A DNA stretch of 35,857 nt from a virus: the IMG/VR virus record IMGVR_UViG_3300025141_000338, positions 1-35,857 of that record; one strand, 5' to 3'. A program made the position numbers and the translations under genes. The notes under the pieces were generated by a model. The model was given only the letters and a program-made list of their open reading frames with translations. It was not told the DNA's origin and searched no databases. Positions 1 through 30,413 of the stretch are shown piece after piece. How positions within the stretch are numbered: the stretch's first letter is position 1; the number at the start of each line of letters is the position of its first letter.

Positions 1-3000
1 CGTCTTAAACAAGAGCCCAACTTCAAACGGGATTGGCAGCTTGACCGGCGTCCCTGATGCCGTGGGAATAATAAAGTTTAAGTCTTTGACTTCATCCGAC
101 TGGTTCTTGTACTGCTCGTCATCACTGACCAGCATATAGTAAAAGCCAGTCAGGGCCGCAAGCATGCTGCTTCTTACTACTGCAGACTGCATGGCTTGGC
201 TCTTGCTGAGAGACTTGTTCGCCGTATAGTTGCCCGTGTAGGCACGGTAGAACAAATCAAGACCCTGCATTCTTGCATTTAAGAAAGGAATCGCGGCAGT
301 AATAACCCGCATGAGCGGGTTAGTCCCACGCCTTGAGAAGTTAATTACTTCCAATGCCTGAAACGCAGCCTCAGCCTCGTTCCCTGTTCTGGCAAGGACA
401 TCCTCGTATACGGCATTCCTTGTGGCAGCATCCGACCTAGTTGTGGCGTTACCAAGAGCGTCCCAAACAGCAGTAAAAGGCTTGAATATTGCCGCACTAC
501 CACCATCGGCATTCATCTTAATGCCTTTCTTCGCGGCTTCTCTCTCCGAGAACTTAACCACATCCTTTGGGTCATTAGTGAAGTCGTATCCACCAACAAC
601 TCCAAACCTTTCAAGCTGATCCATGCCGTCAGCAAAACCCTTGAGGGTATCTACGACCGGGGTAAAGCTTGATCCAGATGTTGTCCAAGCCGACAAGGTA
701 TCCCGAAGCATGTTAACTAACATGAAGCCGGGGTCTCTCGTCACAGTTTCTCGCAACAGATTAGCTGGCATGCCCAGATACTTAATCATCGTCTGGGTCA
801 GGTCACCATCCGATAGCGCCTGCATTGACTCATAAACCAGCGGGTCAGCAATAATGTATTCCAGAGTCTTTCCATCAACTCGGAACTTGACTGTCGGCAA
901 TCCAGATTTGCCGCGAGGCGCTTCTCTGGCGAGGCCAAGCTTCACCATGTCTCTGGTGATTCTTTGCTGGGCAACATTCTTCATGCCCATCTCAATAGCC
1001 ATTGACAGGTTTCTGGTTATTGCCTCCATGAGAGGAACGTTGATTGCTTTCTCGCCGCCTGTTAACGCCTTGAACTCTGCGGCTGCTGTAAGACCAGAAA
1101 ATATTTTAGGGTATCTCCCGCCTAACTCTTGCCCTTCTGCCTGCTTATAGAACGGCACATAGTCAGACATGTCCCGCCAGTCTTCTGCGGTCTGCTCATC
1201 CAACACGCCTGTGTTTCTCAGGAAGTTAATCGTGTTGTTGTTGTATGCCTGCCAAGCGGAATACCATTCTTTAACTATTGATTTCCCAGTTTCGGGATTA
1301 ACGTAGCGATCAACGATTTCATTGATCTGATCTAAGTCACCTTCTTCTACCGGAGTGCGTATCCCTTTCGCCCGAAGCCTTTCGGCACGCATCGAGATTG
1401 CATATGCCTGAGCTATCTCTTCAAGAGATTTACCGTATTGGTTATCAAATAGGGGTGCCATAACCTCAAGCAAGCCACGATACGACTTGCCGTTATGCAC
1501 AAATTCTTGAACCTTGGTTACGCCCCCTTCATAGCTAATAGCTCCAGACTTAATTGCTGAGGCGAGGATTCCTTTAGACCTGTCTGCCATCAGGGCGGCA
1601 GCAATACTACTAGTGTCTGCAAGATTCCCGCGAAGCTGAGGAACTTGATTTAGCTTTTCAAGACGAGCGTATCTGTTTATGAATCCTTGCTTAGCTTTGC
1701 CAAGGAAATAACTAAGCTTGCTGTCACCCGTAACAGACATATACGTCTGCCCCGGCGTCTCATTCTCGGGGGGAGACGTAACGATGCCGGATATTAAAGA
1801 CTGCTCTTCAGGATCGAGGTCGGGAGTATTTGCCCTTGAATACCTATCAAGGGGAACCGGGTCTGCGTAGTCAGATTGATCGGGATTTTGAGCAACGTAC
1901 TGAGATTCTGGCGCGGCAGTAAAACTATATCTGGGCATGGTGCCTGATGAGGCATCAAGCGCAGATAACTCATTCTGCTCTACTGCGTTGTTAGCTTGAG
2001 AGGTGCTGATCGAGAATCTGTTAGTAGGCGAAGGGTATTCATCATCAACAGGTTCTACTTCAATGCCTTCTGACCAAGTCCAGCTAGGCATTAACCCTGT
2101 CTTTTGTTCGGCAAAGACAGTGTCTTCTACTTTAGCTGTTCTGTTGGTATCACCATAAGGTCCGTAATTTAACCAACTATTTTGTCCCCTTGTTTCAGTG
2201 GTCAGGGCATGAAGCGCGGGTCCGGTAAATAATCTAGCATGAGCTTGCCAAGCATTTTCTTCCCCTCGACCTCTAAATCCAGCGCCCTCCAACCCATGGC
2301 CAAACGCATCGTGAACGGCTCGGAATAAATCATTAGCTGTAACAATCTGCTCGACACCTTCCTGATCCCTCCACCGAAGTCCAGTGTCCCTTAGCATTGG
2401 ACTGTCTTCTACTTCAGCCTCCGTTAGCCCCTCAGTGCCAAAACCATCGTATGTTCCATACACCGCCATTCGTTTGTTGTTGCGGAGATCACGCATCGCA
2501 TTGAATGGATTGCCATCATATGGGTCTGATTCAGAATCAAAGAAAGAAAACTCGTACCCGGCCTCAACAAGAGCTTCGTACTGATTACGAGTCTGCTCTA
2601 TTAAGTCATCATAAGCCTTAAGAACCGCAGGATTCTTAGGGTCATGCCGCATATCCTCGTAAGCTTTAGCTATCCTGCGCGCCCGATCTTTTTTTACCTT
2701 GACGTAGGATTCCTGCCTTCTGAAGGGGATTCCGTACTCTTCGGCGTATTCTTCTGCAACTGAGACAAGTTCGGGGTCTGGACCCGTGGCCCCTTGGATA
2801 ACCGGCGCACCATCAAGCGGCGTAAAGCTTCTGCCCTGTAGCCGTCTTCTTCTGTCTCTATCTCGTCCTCGTAATCGTCTTCTATAGACATTTTCTGAGT
2901 CACTCGTAGTAATATCTTTGTCTAGTGTATCATCTTTCTTCTTTGAGTATAGAGTAGGGAATACTCTCCCGTCCGGCAAAACATTTTTCGTGGCATTCTT

Positions 3001-6000
3001 TGCCAGAACAAGCGGACCAATTTGAACAACTTCTTCAGCAAAAGTTACAGGCTCCCCTGTTTTCCTGTCGTAAAAATAAGAATGCCTTCTAGGATCAAAG
3101 CCAACTTGTATCCAGTCTGGAGAGTTAATCGCTTCTTTAGCAATTCTTTTATTTTCTGCCGTGCTGCTTTTAATAAAGTTGCCCATAATTTGGGCAAAAG
3201 GAAACTTCTTTTTTCCTTCCATTACATCTTTGGAATACTCTTGCAGATTGATAGAACCTTTTCCTTTCCTTTCTGCCGTCATCGTAAAATCTGCACCGCT
3301 AATTCTAGCGGTTGCTTGATGAGATATAGGAGACTTGCCTTTGTGGATTGTAGGAACCCAAGTGCCATAGTTTTTGTAAGCGTTTATATCTAAACGCAAA
3401 CCAACAAACATGCCATCTTCAACAGGCGCATTTACTTTGTCTTTTTGACTTTGCATCGCCAAAGCATCAGACATTTCCTGCGTAGTCGCGGGGCGTGGAA
3501 CAAAATCATATTCACTAATTGTTCCAAGGACGACGGCGTCATAATCTTCCCTGCTTATCTCTCCATCTTGAAAACGCCGATAAGCATTAGCAACCTCTGG
3601 CCTCACTCTTGTGTCAGGGGCACCAACCTCTCTCTCCCTTACGCTCGCCTTATCAATTACCGCAGCCTCTTGCTCATCATCTTGAGCCTGCCGGTTGGGA
3701 TCATAAAAATCTGGCTGAGCGCCGGACGGACCACGGGCAGCAGCCCCCTGAATCCTTTCTCTTAGTTCGGCCTCTTGCTCTGCATCCCTGAACGTTCTTA
3801 TTACTCCGGTACGGGTCGTCCGGGTCGCTGTAGAGGTAGGTGTAGGATCGTAAACGGTCGTGGAAGTTGTCTCTCCGCGCTCACGGCCACCGATCTCACC
3901 TGACTCAATGCTTTCAACGATCCCGCTAAAACTCTGAAAGCCATTAAGCCGAAGGAAATTACGAAGCCTCTCAAAGAAATCAGATATTCTGTTCAGCAGA
4001 TTCTTTGGCTTGCCCGATACAACCGAGGAATCTTTTCTGGCGTCCTTGGTTAATTCGGCAACAGCCTCTTCGATCTGAACAGAGGGAAGACTTCCACTGT
4101 AGTCTTTGCGAGCTTGATCTAAATAGGTGACTCCGTTGCTGTTCTTTCGCTTAGCAACAACTCTCGACAAAAGCTTCCACTCTTTATCAGTAAACAGATC
4201 AAGCTCTCGCATTGCATGAATCTGTTCATGATTAATAATGCCGATCAAATGATCTTGCTGTTGTTCAGGCGTCATGCCTGCAGGAAGACGATCTATCGCT
4301 GCAAATATTTGACCAACATACGGAGAATAGAAACCCTCTACCGACTGATCAGGAGATGTCTCTACAACAATATCGCTGTCGCCACCCAAGAAGATAGTTG
4401 AGTCCGGGTCATCCCCCGGAAGCCTCCTTCTAACTCCGTAGACAATCTCCCCTTCAGCGTTCCTGAGAGCATTATTTAATGCCCGTCCAATATTTACGCC
4501 GACATCTTTCAGGCCAACCTTATCCATAGCCGCTTCAGCAGCAGCTTGAAGCTTTACCTGAAAATCATCTGGCCCGGGCAGGGCAAGTACAGGAGTCTCG
4601 ACCTCCTCTTGAACCTGTTCTTCTTTCTTAAATGATCCCTGACTCTCTAAGTCAGACATCAATGCGTCAAGCTTCCTTTGCCCCCGCTCTGTGGAAGTAT
4701 CTATTCCTACTTCAGAGGCAATGTAATCTTTTGTTGAGCCTTCGGCTGGGGAAGTCTTGGCCGACTCAACGCCCTGCTGGAACTGTGCTCTGGAATAGGG
4801 CTTGAGCCGAAAATCTACAAGGTTTGTAGGAGAGTCAAACCTCGGAAGAGACCTCAGCTTTTGATAGAAAACCTTAAGCTCAGCAGGAGAAAAATCTGAA
4901 ATCTTTTTCCTGCCCTTTGCCGAGACGCCGGTAAATAGTTCGGCCAGAGTCCTGACTTCAGGAGAACCTATTGGAGACGAAATATTCTTGCTTCTCAGCA
5001 GGCTCTGAATTAGAGAAATATTTACTTCTTTTTCTGAAAAAACAGACTCGTCAACAAGGCCAATGTCTTTGTTCTTATTGAGGGCGTTGGCATACTTACG
5101 GGCCTCGCCCATAGTTACCAACTTGATCTTAGAGGGAGCCCTTTTGCCAGCTTCTCTTGCCTGCTGCTTTTCTAGCGCAGTTGCTGGCCTTGAATTGATA
5201 ACCTCTCCAGAAGAACTAACAACTACAAAGTTACCTTTGTTCCTGCCCTTCTTGAGCTTCCTTGTTGTGTACGTCTCTGTTTCAATCTCGCTGGGTTTGT
5301 CAGCAAGCTTCCCGAAGTTCTTTCCAAGAACTGACTTAGCCTCTTGAACAGTAAACGTTGTTGTCTCTGGTAGACCTTGCTGAAGACGCTTAGCATTTAT
5401 CCTCTGGGCAGCAGTCATTTTGCGGGGAGACGTGCCCAGAGCAATCATTTCTTTTAAGACGCTTTTACCATTGGCGTCATAATTGTTTTCGCTGAACCCC
5501 TCAGCAATTGTCGTACCTGCCGCGCTGTTAACTTCAGCTATGGTGTACGTGTTTTCATCTGGATGAAGCGCCCTGAAACCATAGAGCATCATTGTTCTGG
5601 CGGCTTCTGGGGACAGAGACTGATCGGAAATATCCAGAATTGTTACCAATCCATTAATGATATTCCTGTCTATGATCTCGTCGTTTAAGACACCAGCGAG
5701 CTTTACTGCCTCCTCATAAGAGGGGAGGTTTGTTCCGTAGTTGTCTCCCTTGGAATCAACTACCCTGAACTGAGGCATCCCGTTTCTATCAAGACCTTCT
5801 TGCTTTACAGAAAAGCTGCCGGGTTCAAAGTCAAAGTTATCGCCCATCGTTCTGGCGATATGCCGACCATAGGCAACAGTCTTATCTACAGGTCTTGCCT
5901 CAACGAACGATTCCGGGGGTGCCTGAATCTCATTGATCGAAAGGTCTAGCTGAGGATTTTGAACCCCATCAACAGACAACACCTTCTCGACAAACGTGCC

Positions 6001-7260
6001 ATCTTCTTCCGGGGCTAGGATGTACTTAACTTCTTTAGACTCCCCCCTCGATCTGAGAGTCTTTGTACGCTCCTCTGCTTGGAAGGAATTACCTTCTATG
6101 TCGGTAGCCAGAACTATTCTGTTGGGGGCTCCAAGCCCTGTAGGGCCGATCTGATCTGGATCAGGGGGAAGTATCTGAGAAGGGTCTACCCGCGCACCTA
6201 CTTCCGGCTCAACTCCCGGCTCTGCTTGCGCGGCCTGAGCCGCCTGAGCCGCAGTCAATTTCTGCTCAGAATCTTCTATTGCCTTGCTTCTTCTTGCTCT
6301 TGCTTCCCTTTCTTTCTCTAGCGTTATCTCGCCTTCAAGATTCTTTCTTCTTCCAGCAACAGCATTAAGTACCAAATCTGCGCCTGTACCTATTGCGCCA
6401 CCAACCGTAAAGTCATCAAGTAGAGATTCATTGCTTGGCAGGTTTTCATTATAAATGCCACGCTCAATGGCATCCTGAGAAATACTTGCAACAACTTCCT
6501 GAGTCCCTTCTGCTGCACCTGTCAGCAACGCACCCTTAAGTTGGTCAGATAAATTCTTCCTAAACTGAGCATCTGCTGTCTTAGAGACTCGACTAAGCAA
6601 CCTGTTTACAGGGGCAAGCTCTGACAAGCCAACAACTGCGCCCCCTAATATTGCTAAATCCTCTTCACCTTGAGATACATCAAGCCCTCGATCTTTTGCG
6701 GCCTGTACTCTTTGGGCCTGCTCTCCCGTCCCAGTGCCAACAGCTAAAGTTCCTGTTACCGCAGCCTCTGTAGCACCCATCCCGCCCAACTTAGGGATTA
6801 CTTTCCCGGCCAAGCCAGTAAGTCTCAGGGCACCCGCAGGAGTTAAGAACGAAGCAAACGATCCGATGCCTTCGCCAAACTTGGTCATCCAAGTATCGTT
6901 GTAGGCAACATCTGACCCAAGATATTCATTGATAAAGTTGCGTCCCTCTCGGGAAGCTCTTACGAGTTCATTCTCCTCACCGGAATCAATGAGGTCATCC
7001 ATGCCGACAGCGTTGGTCGCGGCATCAGCTAACTCAGCGATACCTTCGCCTGCTGTTAAGAATGAGTTGGCAAATCCTCTAGGGACGCCTTTAAGAAATT
7101 CTGCCGCCTGACCAGATACCGTCCTTTGCTCAGCAAAGAAGTCTTCAAAATCTGACGCTGAAGCAACGTTGTTCTTTATAGACAGTCTCGCAAGTTCATC
7201 ACGAGACATATCATCGGGAACATCCGTAACCAGAACACCATTCGGAAGCCTTACATTCAT
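1..7260 (-). CDS. Giant polyvalent phage protein (C-terminus beyond window)
   Basis: One uninterrupted frame of 2,420 codons runs from ATG at 7260 to base 1 with no stop, so the gene is cut by the window edge. The start overlaps the upstream stop as ATGA. Seen: an N-terminus MNVRLPNGVLVTDVPDD; a Gly/Ala-rich hydrophobic stretch at about residues 130-310 that could act on membranes; a zinc-peptidase-like HEQIH at residues 1011-1015 followed by IEEAVAE at 1063-1069, where a glutamate could be the third ligand; a conserved block with HDAFGHG at 1650-1656 followed by RGEENAWQAH; and near residue 2305 INFSRRGTNPLMRVITAAIP then PFLNARMQGLD, which I recognise as like LPD38 of large polyvalent proteins. 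Such proteins in phages are thought to be packaged and delivered into the host. Position after the other large virion genes suggests an ejection protein like T7 gp16; this is inference. Confidence 0.9.
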   Translation of the reverse strand, partial: MNVRLPNGVLVTDVPDDMSRDELARLSIKNNVASASDFEDFFAEQRTVSGQAAEFLKGVPRGFANSFLTAGEGIAELADAATNAVGMDDLIDSGEENELVRASREGRNFINEYLGSDVAYNDTWMTKFGEGIGSFASFLTPAGALRLTGLAGKVIPKLGGMGATEAAVTGTLAVGTGTGEQAQRVQAAKDRGLDVSQGEEDLAILGGAVVGLSELAPVNRLLSRVSKTADAQFRKNLSDQLKGALLTGAAEGTQEVVASISQDAIERGIYNENLPSNESLLDDFTVGGAIGTGADLVLNAVAGRRKNLEGEITLEKEREARARRSKAIEDSEQKLTAAQAAQAAQAEPGVEPEVGARVDPSQILPPDPDQIGPTGLGAPNRIVLATDIEGNSFQAEERTKTLRSRGESKEVKYILAPEEDGTFVEKVLSVDGVQNPQLDLSINEIQAPPESFVEARPVDKTVAYGRHIARTMGDNFDFEPGSFSVKQEGLDRNGMPQFRVVDSKGDNYGTNLPSYEEAVKLAGVLNDEIIDRNIINGLVTILDISDQSLSPEAARTMMLYGFRALHPDENTYTIAEVNSAAGTTIAEGFSENNYDANGKSVLKEMIALGTSPRKMTAAQRINAKRLQQGLPETTTFTVQEAKSVLGKNFGKLADKPSEIETETYTTRKLKKGRNKGNFVVVSSSGEVINSRPATALEKQQAREAGKRAPSKIKLVTMGEARKYANALNKNKDIGLVDESVFSEKEVNISLIQSLLRSKNISSPIGSPEVRTLAELFTGVSAKGRKKISDFSPAELKVFYQKLRSLPRFDSPTNLVDFRLKPYSRAQFQQGVESAKTSPAEGSTKDYIASEVGIDTSTERGQRKLDALMSDLESQGSFKKEEQVQEEVETPVLALPGPDDFQVKLQAAAEAAMDKVGLKDVGVNIGRALNNALRNAEGEIVYGVRRRLPGDDPDSTIFLGGDSDIVVETSPDQSVEGFYSPYVGQIFAAIDRLPAGMTPEQQQDHLIGIINHEQIHAMRELDLFTDKEWKLLSRVVAKRKNSNGVTYLDQARKDYSGSLPSVQIEEAVAELTKDARKDSSVVSGKPKNLLNRISDFFERLRNFLRLNGFQSFSGIVESIESGEIGGRERGETTSTTVYDPTPTSTATRTTRTGVIRTFRDAEQEAELRERIQGAAARGPSGAQPDFYDPNRQAQDDEQEAAVIDKASVREREVGAPDTRVRPEVANAYRRFQDGEISREDYDAVVLGTISEYDFVPRPATTQEMSDALAMQSQKDKVNAPVEDGMFVGLRLDINAYKNYGTWVPTIHKGKSPISHQATARISGADFTMTAERKGKGSINLQEYSKDVMEGKKKFPFAQIMGNFIKSSTAENKRIAKEAINSPDWIQVGFDPRRHSYFYDRKTGEPVTFAEEVVQIGPLVLAKNATKNVLPDGRVFPTLYSKKKDDTLDKDITTSDSENVYRRRLRGRDRDRRRRLQGRSFTPLDGAPVIQGATGPDPELVSVAEEYAEEYGIPFRRQESYVKVKKDRARRIAKAYEDMRHDPKNPAVLKAYDDLIEQTRNQYEALVEAGYEFSFFDSESDPYDGNPFNAMRDLRNNKRMAVYGTYDGFGTEGLTEAEVEDSPMLRDTGLRWRDQEGVEQIVTANDLFRAVHDAFGHGLEGAGFRGRGEENAWQAHARLFTGPALHALTTETRGQNSWLNYGPYGDTNRTAKVEDTVFAEQKTGLMPSWTWSEGIEVEPVDDEYPSPTNRFSISTSQANNAVEQNELSALDASSGTMPRYSFTAAPESQYVAQNPDQSDYADPVPLDRYSRANTPDLDPEEQSLISGIVTSPPENETPGQTYMSVTGDSKLSYFLGKAKQGFINRYARLEKLNQVPQLRGNLADTSSIAAALMADRSKGILASAIKSGAISYEGGVTKVQEFVHNGKSYRGLLEVMAPLFDNQYGKSLEEIAQAYAISMRAERLRAKGIRTPVEEGDLDQINEIVDRYVNPETGKSIVKEWYSAWQAYNNNTINFLRNTGVLDEQTAEDWRDMSDYVPFYKQAEGQELGGRYPKIFSGLTAAAEFKALTGGEKAINVPLMEAITRNLSMAIEMGMKNVAQQRITRDMVKLGLAREAPRGKSGLPTVKFRVDGKTLEYIIADPLVYESMQALSDGDLTQTMIKYLGMPANLLRETVTRDPGFMLVNMLRDTLSAWTTSGSSFTPVVDTLKGFADGMDQLERFGVVGGYDFTNDPKDVVKFSEREAAKKGIKMNADGGSAAIFKPFTAVWDALGNATTRSDAATRNAVYEDVLARTGNEAEAAFQALEVINFSRRGTNPLMRVITAAIPFLNARMQGLDLFYRAYTGNYTANKSLSKSQAMQSAVVRSSMLAALTGFYYMLVSDDEQYKNQSDEVKDLNFIIPTASGTPVKLPIPFEVGLLFKT

Positions 7261-28792: not shown

Positions 28793-29317
28793 TTATTGGT
28801 CAGCAAATGCTGGAGCAGTTGCGCCAGTCACGGTCCCAAAGATTTGATAGTTCGTACTATCAAGACCAATGATCGTAATGTCGAAAGCTGCAGGAACATT
28901 GATCTGAATGCTGCTATTAGAGTTCCCGTCAGAAAACACAACACTTACTTCGTTGTCCGTGTCCAAGAAGGTCACGCCACCTTTGTAAAAGTTTGTGTTA
29001 CCGGGGGTAACAATAAGCGCATCAGTGGCATCTGCCGCAGCGCCTGCGTAAACAAAACGATAAAAAACACCAGCCGAAGGGGCCGGAAGCGTATAAGTGC
29101 TGTCTTGGCTGTTATCGCCAATCAGATTAATACGCCCACCATTTACGGCAGCAGTCAGTGATGTGGAAGCGGCATCGGCCAAAGAGACCGGAGTAACCTG
29201 CATTCCAGACCCATCAAGGGTAAAGGACGTGGTAAACGCTCCGGTTGTGCTGTTTTTTGAAACGACATCGAAGCCGTTTTCAGACCGGACTGCTCCGGTG
29301 AAGGTGGTGTTAGCCAT
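28793..29317 (-). CDS. Capsid-surface-type virion protein (174 aa)
   Basis: ANTTFTGAVRSENGFDVVSK opens a Thr/Ser/Ala-rich beta protein with NSQDSTYTLPAPSAGVFYRF and a C-terminal half of hydrophobic strands. Proteins with the VRSENGF start follow the capsid gene in many uncultured marine phages. AGGAGA lies upstream of the ATG. It is the first gene after the terminator and parS-like site, so it needs either read-through or its own promoter; I could not see a convincing promoter. Confidence 0.8.
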   Translation of the reverse strand: MANTTFTGAVRSENGFDVVSKNSTTGAFTTSFTLDGSGMQVTPVSLADAASTSLTAAVNGGRINLIGDNSQDSTYTLPAPSAGVFYRFVYAGAAADATDALIVTPGNTNFYKGGVTFLDTDNEVSVVFSDGNSNSSIQINVPAAFDITIIGLDSTNYQIFGTVTGATAPAFADQ

Positions 29318-29405
29318 GTGTTTCTCCTGTCTTGGCTAGTGTCTGTTAATGCTCTAGTTGGAACATTACAGTCAGGGGAAAGATATTAAAAGAACAAGCG
29401 ACCAA

Positions 29406-29421
29406 TGTTTCACGTGGAACA
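29406..29421. promoter_or_regulatory. parS-like 16-bp palindrome (ParB binding site match)
   Basis: Plus strand reads TGTTTCACGTGGAACA; the minus strand reads TGTTCCACGTGAAACA, which is the bacterial chromosomal parS consensus. The dyad extends imperfectly to 24 bp (29402-29425, 10 of 12 pairs). It lies in the 157-bp gap between the major capsid gene terminator and the 174-aa gene. Binding of ParB is an inference from the match. Confidence 0.7.
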
Positions 29422-29443
29422 CTGGACCAAAAGAAAGGTTACA

Positions 29444-29469
29444 ACAAAAAGGGGGCTTTCGCCCCCTTT
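29444..29469 (-). terminator. Rho-independent terminator after the major capsid gene
   Basis: In the transcript direction AAAGGGGGC, loop GAAA, GCCCCCTTT form a perfect 9-bp stem (29448-29456 with 29461-29469) followed by T's. It starts a few bases after the capsid stop codon. GNRA loop and GC stem make it very stable. Confidence 0.92.
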
Positions 29470-29474
29470 CCGTT

Positions 29475-30413
29475 TTAGCTTGCGCCGGGTGATCCGTAGA
29501 TACCCAGCGGGTCAGACACACCGAAACTGTAACGAGCGCGAGCTTTGTAGCGCACGTTGCCAGTATCGAAGTCTCCGTCCATCGAGGTTTCCAGTTCGGT
29601 CCGCTCGAAATGCTTCATACCGTTAGGTACGTCCGTAATCAGGAAGAAAGCATTGCTGTCCGTCAGGTAATGATTAACGCTGTACCCTTCAGGGATTGCA
29701 CCCATGTTGCGGATAGCGTTGAGATCATTGTCTGCCGTGCCAACACGCTGAGTTGTTTCAAGCAGGCGATCTGCCGTAAACATCAAAGCGGGAGGAACGA
29801 TCAGGCGACGAGGACGAGCAGCAATCAACAGACCACGTTCGTCAGTGAAGGCCGCAATATCAATAATTGCATTCTCCAGAGACGTTTCGTTGAGGTCAGC
29901 AGCCGTAGAAGGCCGATTGCTGTTTTTCCCGCCATTGACGAGGGGGTGACCGTCACCACCAGTTACGCCGTCACCAGATGCGGTAAACAGGTTTACCCCG
30001 TCACCTGACTGGTAACTATTCGTGAAGCCATTGTTAAGCGGGTTAACCGCCTTAACTTGCTTGGTGTAGGCCATAGCCCGAGCAAGAGCTTTGGTGTAAC
30101 GAGCAGACAAAGAGTCATACAAGTTATCTTCCATAGCCTCTTCGGTAATGGCAAAGCCCATAGCGATGGTTTCGTGGTTGTAACGAGCCGTGAAAGATTC
30201 CTGTGCGGAGTCATAGCTGATGGCAGCGCCCTCAGCTTTAACCGGCGCAGCAGCAAATCCTGACAGCTTCACCTCTTCCTCGAAAGAACGATCAGAGCTT
30301 TCCGTCTCATAAATGAGAGTGTGCTCATCTTCGTACTTCTCATACTCCAAACCAAAAAGAGCATTAAGCCCCGGCAGGAGTTCTTTGAGCATTTGCGCTC
30401 TTGAAATTGCCAT
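29475..30413 (-). CDS. Major capsid protein
   Basis: The 312-residue protein (AISRAQMLKELLPGLNALFG, then EYEKYEDEHTLIYETESSDR) has the length and pattern of HK97-fold capsid proteins of the Mu-like gpT group: an E-loop region with EEEVKLSGFAAAPVKAEG, ETIAMGFAITEEAMEDNLYD before the spine helix, and RRLIVPPALMFTADRLLETT in the P domain. The C-terminus (KARARYSFGVSDPLGIYGSP) is also typical. It lies after the scaffold and a decoration-type gene and before a strong terminator, a layout suited to high, separately tuned expression. No prohead protease is seen nearby. Confidence 0.92.
   Translation of the reverse strand: MAISRAQMLKELLPGLNALFGLEYEKYEDEHTLIYETESSDRSFEEEVKLSGFAAAPVKAEGAAISYDSAQESFTARYNHETIAMGFAITEEAMEDNLYDSLSARYTKALARAMAYTKQVKAVNPLNNGFTNSYQSGDGVNLFTASGDGVTGGDGHPLVNGGKNSNRPSTAADLNETSLENAIIDIAAFTDERGLLIAARPRRLIVPPALMFTADRLLETTQRVGTADNDLNAIRNMGAIPEGYSVNHYLTDSNAFFLITDVPNGMKHFERTELETSMDGDFDTGNVRYKARARYSFGVSDPLGIYGSPGAS

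Follow-up and report, generated by a model that had tools for sequence, protein, structure and literature searches.

A gap between the major capsid gene and the following gene in a family of apparently lytic marine phages carries a 16-bp palindrome that is probably a captured chromosomal-type parS, nucleating host ParB on the phage DNA. Its sequence and distribution suggest that a marine phage family without a recognisable ParB gene recruits the ParB of its host to viral DNA. The observed basis consists of the conservation of the element, its position, its pattern of variation, the avoidance of CACGTG and the lack of a detectable ParB. From these we infer that ParB binds the site and that the phage benefits.

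The Site and Its Surroundings

The window is the whole stretch of DNA that was analysed, a viral record of 35,857 bases. Its major capsid gene is separated from the next gene by a gap of 157 bases (29318-29474). Along the direction of transcription, this gap contains an intrinsic terminator, the dyad and a Mu-gpT-DE RNA, in that order (Table 1). The 16-mer is an exact match to the chromosomal-type parS consensus TGTTYCACGTGRAACA. An exact parS on the minus strand, within a 24-bp imperfect dyad, had been claimed in an earlier sequence-only reading, and direct matching confirms it. That reading also held a chance match to be very unlikely, and this stands. By arithmetic, an exact match to one given 16-mer in the window has a chance of ~2e-5, or ~1e-4 with both degenerate parS positions free, and the site recurs in homologous gaps. 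There is no second site at three or fewer mismatches elsewhere in the 35,857-base record, dinucleotide shuffles give a mean of 0.27 matches at three or fewer mismatches, and the sequence CACGTG occurs exactly once in the 35.9 kb, as the core of the 16-mer.

Table 1. Features in and around the capsid-to-cement gap of the window.
Feature	Position	Strand	Basis or remark
parS-type 16-mer TGTTCCACGTGAAACA	29406..29421	-	Direct sequence match; conserved in relatives
Imperfect 24-bp dyad extending the 16-mer	29402..29425	.	Plus strand reads CCAATGTTTCACGTGGAACACTGG
Major capsid protein, Mu gpT-like	29475..30413	-	PHROG 371
Downstream gene	28793..29317	-	Syntenic with gene annotated 'cement protein' in phage DSL-LC04
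Capsid-gene intrinsic terminator, GGGGGCGAAAGCCCCC + T-run	~29446..29466	-	Read directly from sequence
Mu-gpT-DE RNA (Rfam RF03012), cement mRNA leader hairpin	29315..29377	-	51.5 bits, E 3e-9
Lone half-site TGTTCCA in the Mu-gpT-DE hairpin	29359..29365	-	Read from sequence

The strong terminator behind which the site had been placed is indeed there; it is absent from the list produced by a consensus scanner. The earlier account of the gap was right about the terminator and the parS sequence, but it overlooked the Mu-gpT-DE element, which exceeds the Rfam gathering cut-off of 49 bits and does not overlap the 16-mer of the window. We know of no function for Mu-gpT-DE. In folds of the leaders of relatives, a CCUG in the leader is able to pair with the CAGG of the cement ribosome-binding site, and translation of the cement protein may be controlled by this pairing. 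Elsewhere in the window (1-7250), the first 7 kb contains no ORF longer than 124 aa, unlike the remaining record.

Presence and Place of the Site in Relatives

Eighty viral loci were retrieved by capsid protein alone, and the same gap was excised from these and from later sets. The unbiased set consists of 185 distinct homologous gaps that were retrieved by capsid protein or by the Mu-gpT-DE pattern, and not by the 16-mer. Scored by the closest approach of each gap to TGTTYCANNTGRAACA, the set divides into 22 gaps that match perfectly, 3 with a single mismatch and 160 with at least three; no gap has two mismatches. The 16-mer at zero or one mismatch is thus found in 25 of the 185 gaps, and the other gaps resemble random sequence. 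Since no gap falls at two mismatches and 160 lie in the random-like range, the element is either intact or absent. Among gaps selected by capsid protein alone, presence by capsid identity is 1/1 at 95% or above, 9/13 at 90-95%, 5/10 at 85-90%, 2/12 at 80-85% and 0/52 below 80%; in the set selected by Mu-gpT-DE, some carriers are found at 61-65% capsid identity. Because many close relatives are without it, the element is accessory, with gains and losses, and dispensable. The 11 long records, some of them fragments, contain exactly one site in nine cases and none in two.

The site occupies three locations in the gap. In most carriers, the palindrome is the apical stem of Mu-gpT-DE. It lies between the terminator and the leader in the window and in four other loci (L006, L016, L410 and L419), and after the capsid stop codon but before the terminator in six (L378, L394, L369, L354, L360 and L385). 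L267 and L221, which are closest to the window (~96% capsid identity), carry the palindrome inside Mu-gpT-DE. The lone half-site in the hairpin of the window is perhaps a relic of a palindrome lost from the hairpin and retained nearby.

The sequence-only reading had proposed looking for the site at the syntenic position in close relatives. The outcome is mixed: the gap of many of them contains the site, but it is often absent, or occupies another spot in the gap, including the hairpin of Mu-gpT-DE. Across relatives, the position of the parS-type site is conserved at the level of this common gap, and its being there is no accident. The earlier claim of a parS sequence in a capsid module is borne out to the extent that a conserved, host-type sequence recurs in the capsid-to-cement gap of relatives.

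The patchy presence could also be that of a chance match, or of a parS fragment acquired once and passively inherited without function, and a common origin of most copies is possible. We consider such a relic very unlikely. The flanks are free to vary and the 16-mer is not; presence and absence change at least 17 times on the capsid tree (FastTree, many weak branches), to which are added several shifts of place; and the centre of the palindrome stays restricted under repeated change.

Cultured relatives with identified hosts, among those read, have no element in the capsid-to-cement gap. In nine whole records of cultured relatives, the site is found only in Alcaligenes phage QDWS535 and Pelagibacter phage HTVC027P, in both cases outside this gap. 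In QDWS535 (L576, OK172329.1:47934), an exact site falls inside a short ORF prediction, in a stretch that is otherwise open, and in HTVC027P (L577, MN698241.1:16412), a site with one mismatch is intergenic. The capsids of both phages are related to that of the window.

DNA or RNA Constraint

The arms of the palindrome are nearly invariant save at position 5/12, which is the degenerate position of parS; that is, the positions conserved in parS are kept in the relatives and the degenerate one is free. On the capsid tree, about 30 changes fall in the centre, 17 at position 5/12 and 3 at all other pairs together. These counts are partly biased by loci that were retrieved with fixed arms, and the unselected loci give the same picture. 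Arms that are fixed save at 5/12, together with a restricted, unpaired centre, are what a protein reading TGTTYCAC half-sites would produce, and not what a stem or loop would.

The reading favoured initially was one of RNA alone. In it, the palindrome is a hairpin of the cement mRNA leader, a stem with a stabilising or regulatory role that belongs to Mu-gpT-DE, and its likeness to parS is coincidental. This reading accords with the location of most copies in the apical stem, and it has one observation that only RNA pairing can explain. In the copies located within Mu-gpT-DE, the transcribed strand shows C-G, U-A or U.G at pair 5/12, and never C.A (U.G versus C.A, 17 versus 0 copies; 13 versus 0 distinct sites, p 2e-4), although the U.G and C.A forms are reverse complements and hence equivalent at a DNA site. 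RNA pairing is therefore under selection where the palindrome sits inside Mu-gpT-DE. As the whole story, this reading was dropped, because the 16-mer is also found before the terminator and between the terminator and Mu-gpT-DE, and because no compensatory change is seen at any stem pair other than 5/12. Ordinary Mu-gpT-DE hairpins comprise 86 different stem sequences; the particular sequence of the palindrome is therefore no requirement of the RNA element. The restriction of the unpaired centre to CG, CA or TG is likewise against it, as is the copy in the window, whose 24-bp dyad contains a single C.A mismatch and a single G.U on the transcribed strand and has an unremarkable fold (-9.5 kcal/mol, z -1.57). 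A coincidental RNA hairpin thus seems to us improbable.

A DNA-binding protein other than ParB, either a phage regulator or a host factor, might read the half-site as TGTTYCAY and use it as an operator for late transcription at the capsid-cement boundary. The constant gap beside a terminator would suit such an operator, and extended -10-like sequences were noted there by eye in some relatives that have no palindrome. The sequence and its pattern of variation, however, match the chromosomal parS of Pseudomonadota, there is a single copy per genome with no second operator, the location shifts relative to the leader, and a consensus promoter search at the window site found none. We regard an operator of this kind as a rather remote prospect and prefer a parS-type site read by ParB.

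The Centre of the Palindrome

The exact CACGTG core described in the sequence-only reading is true of the window, but most relatives, which that reading overlooked, carry CACATG or CATGTG, one core base off parS. A search that left the central bases open counted, in the Mu-gpT-DE context, 40 CA, 21 TG, 13 CG and 1 TA. Over 58 distinct sites, about 9 TA centres are expected under independence and 1 is seen (Fisher 3e-6). The phages with CA or TG centres have no CACGTG at all, against 60.9 expected (686 kb, both strands). Other 6-bp palindromes containing G+C are also rare in them, and CATATG is not avoided (O/E 0.78).

CACGTG is the restriction site of Eco72I/PmlI. One C to T change destroys it and leaves one parS half-site whole, whereas a TA centre would break both halves. 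Since CACGTG is avoided genome-wide and TA centres are almost missing, restriction avoidance combined with the keeping of one intact half-site would explain the centre. Decay of CpG as the source of the CA and TG centres was set aside because of the genome-wide avoidance of CACGTG and of other G+C-containing 6-bp palindromes, and also because of the missing TA centres.

Eco72I has been listed for parS sites (PMC4368675). The ParB of P. aeruginosa favours sites that retain one perfect arm over those altered in both (PMC4368675), and it binds the lone half-sites GTTCCAC and GTTTCAC (PMC7022226). An intact CACGTG core matters for its affinity (PMC4368675). For this reason, the majority of the phage sites may bind ParB weakly.

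Phage Genes, Lifestyle and Host

The window and ten long relatives (11 records, some of them fragments) were searched for the proteins of a partition system. No match was found to the ParB N-terminal domain (PF02195) or to the ParA-type ATPase (PF13614), nor was the tyrosine integrase (PF00589) matched in the same 11 records. A self-encoded phage parABS is disfavoured on this ground, and the phage-encoded ParB that had earlier been offered as an option is not among the proteins detected in these records. Given that some records are fragments, the absence of ParB, ParA and tyrosine integrase genes is no more than suggestive. Host assignment was tried through MAG contigs bearing relatives of the capsid gene; it was unusable because the bins span many phyla, and the phage contigs in them are probably misbinned.

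Chromosomal and Other Viral parS Sites

In chromosomal parS, the CACGTG centre is the rule. Among 299 Pseudomonadota genomes, the CA-centred 16-mer nevertheless occurs 30 times in 29 genomes, and a reversed control 16-mer does not occur. A Porticoccaceae MAG has a CATGTG site and a CACGTG site paired inside recF, between dnaN and gyrB. The motif is found in 69/77 genomes of the order to which this MAG belongs, commonly paired at ~630 bases apart. From the CA-centred 16-mers in Pseudomonadota and the pair in recF, the CA- and TG-centred sites are a minor variant that occurs naturally among chromosomal parS sites.

Other viral contigs were retrieved by the parS 16-mer alone, so that misassigned contigs and phage-plasmids with their own ParB are still included. 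Among the matches listed, the 16-mer lies outside ORFs of at least 300 nt in 47/110 and a centre-swapped control palindrome in 5/92 (Fisher 3e-10), a comparison of location only, in which frequencies carry no meaning. Given this intergenic bias in unrelated viral contigs, the carriage of parS may extend wider among viruses. Several individual contigs may be described. In L131, L159 and L172, large-terminase-like genes have exact 16-mers in their vicinity or upstream of them, as judged by eye. Three to five exact 16-mers lie within a few kb in L111, L110 and L094, which are possible phage-plasmids or misplaced host DNA. The palindrome is directly behind a terminator in L088 (288-303) and L102 (5343-5358), and TGTTCCACGTGAAACA, the form in the window, stands shortly before a GACAGGAGG ribosome-binding site in L135 (2048-2063) and L230, where Mu-gpT-DE is lacking.

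Proposed Use of Host ParB

We propose that a chromosomal-type parS was captured by the phage and has been kept by selection on its DNA sequence. The ParB of the infected host would nucleate with CTP at the 16-mer on viral DNA. Since neither ParB nor ParA is detected in the phages, which bring only the site, it would be the proteins of the host that are used. The core broken in most of the phages, with one TGTTYCAC half-site left whole, would balance the binding of ParB against exposure to restriction. Palindromes located in the leader hairpin of Mu-gpT-DE must additionally pair as RNA. Stated in full, the proposal is that apparently lytic phages of several lineages load host ParB, with SMC or ParA, through a host-type parS in which half of the core has been sacrificed against restriction. 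This full version is plausible, though we lean slightly against it.

What the phage might gain can be named only tentatively. Tethering, condensation or segregation of viral DNA in cis through host ParB and SMC is conceivable but doubtful. It is unlikely that the site acts locally on transcription between the capsid and cement genes, and quite improbable that it serves as a decoy, pulling ParB away from the origin of the host while the phage replicates. If host ParB does bind, these phages would exploit or disturb chromosome segregation through one small DNA site, without a protein of their own. The proposal is directly testable.

Relation to Known Systems

In the open-access literature, subscription papers and preprints aside, no report of a lytic phage bearing a chromosomal-type parS came to light. 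The nearest sequence likeness is to the chromosomal parS of ParABS systems (Pseudomonas-type TGTTCCACGTGGAACA), which has the same 16-mer and the same degenerate position, with CA and TG variants occurring in chromosomes too. The phage site differs in being single, in having no parA or parB found with it, in its mostly broken core and in its place in a capsid module. Mu-gpT-DE (RF03012) contains the palindrome in most carriers, whereas in the window the palindrome lies outside it. The usual members of this RNA family have unrelated stems, and the palindrome is an added element.

Phage-plasmids and extrachromosomal prophages, such as P1 and the mycobacterial prophages, have their own ParA and ParB as well as their own centromere. 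They resemble the present phages in bearing a centromere on phage DNA, and differ in that no ParA or ParB was found here. The closest known case is SGI1, a mobile element that bears sites for the ParB of another replicon, its parS-like sites using the ParB of the IncC plasmid (PMC10954446). SGI1 is an integrative element that mimics a plasmid parS, whereas here an apparently lytic phage would be mimicking the parS of a chromosome.
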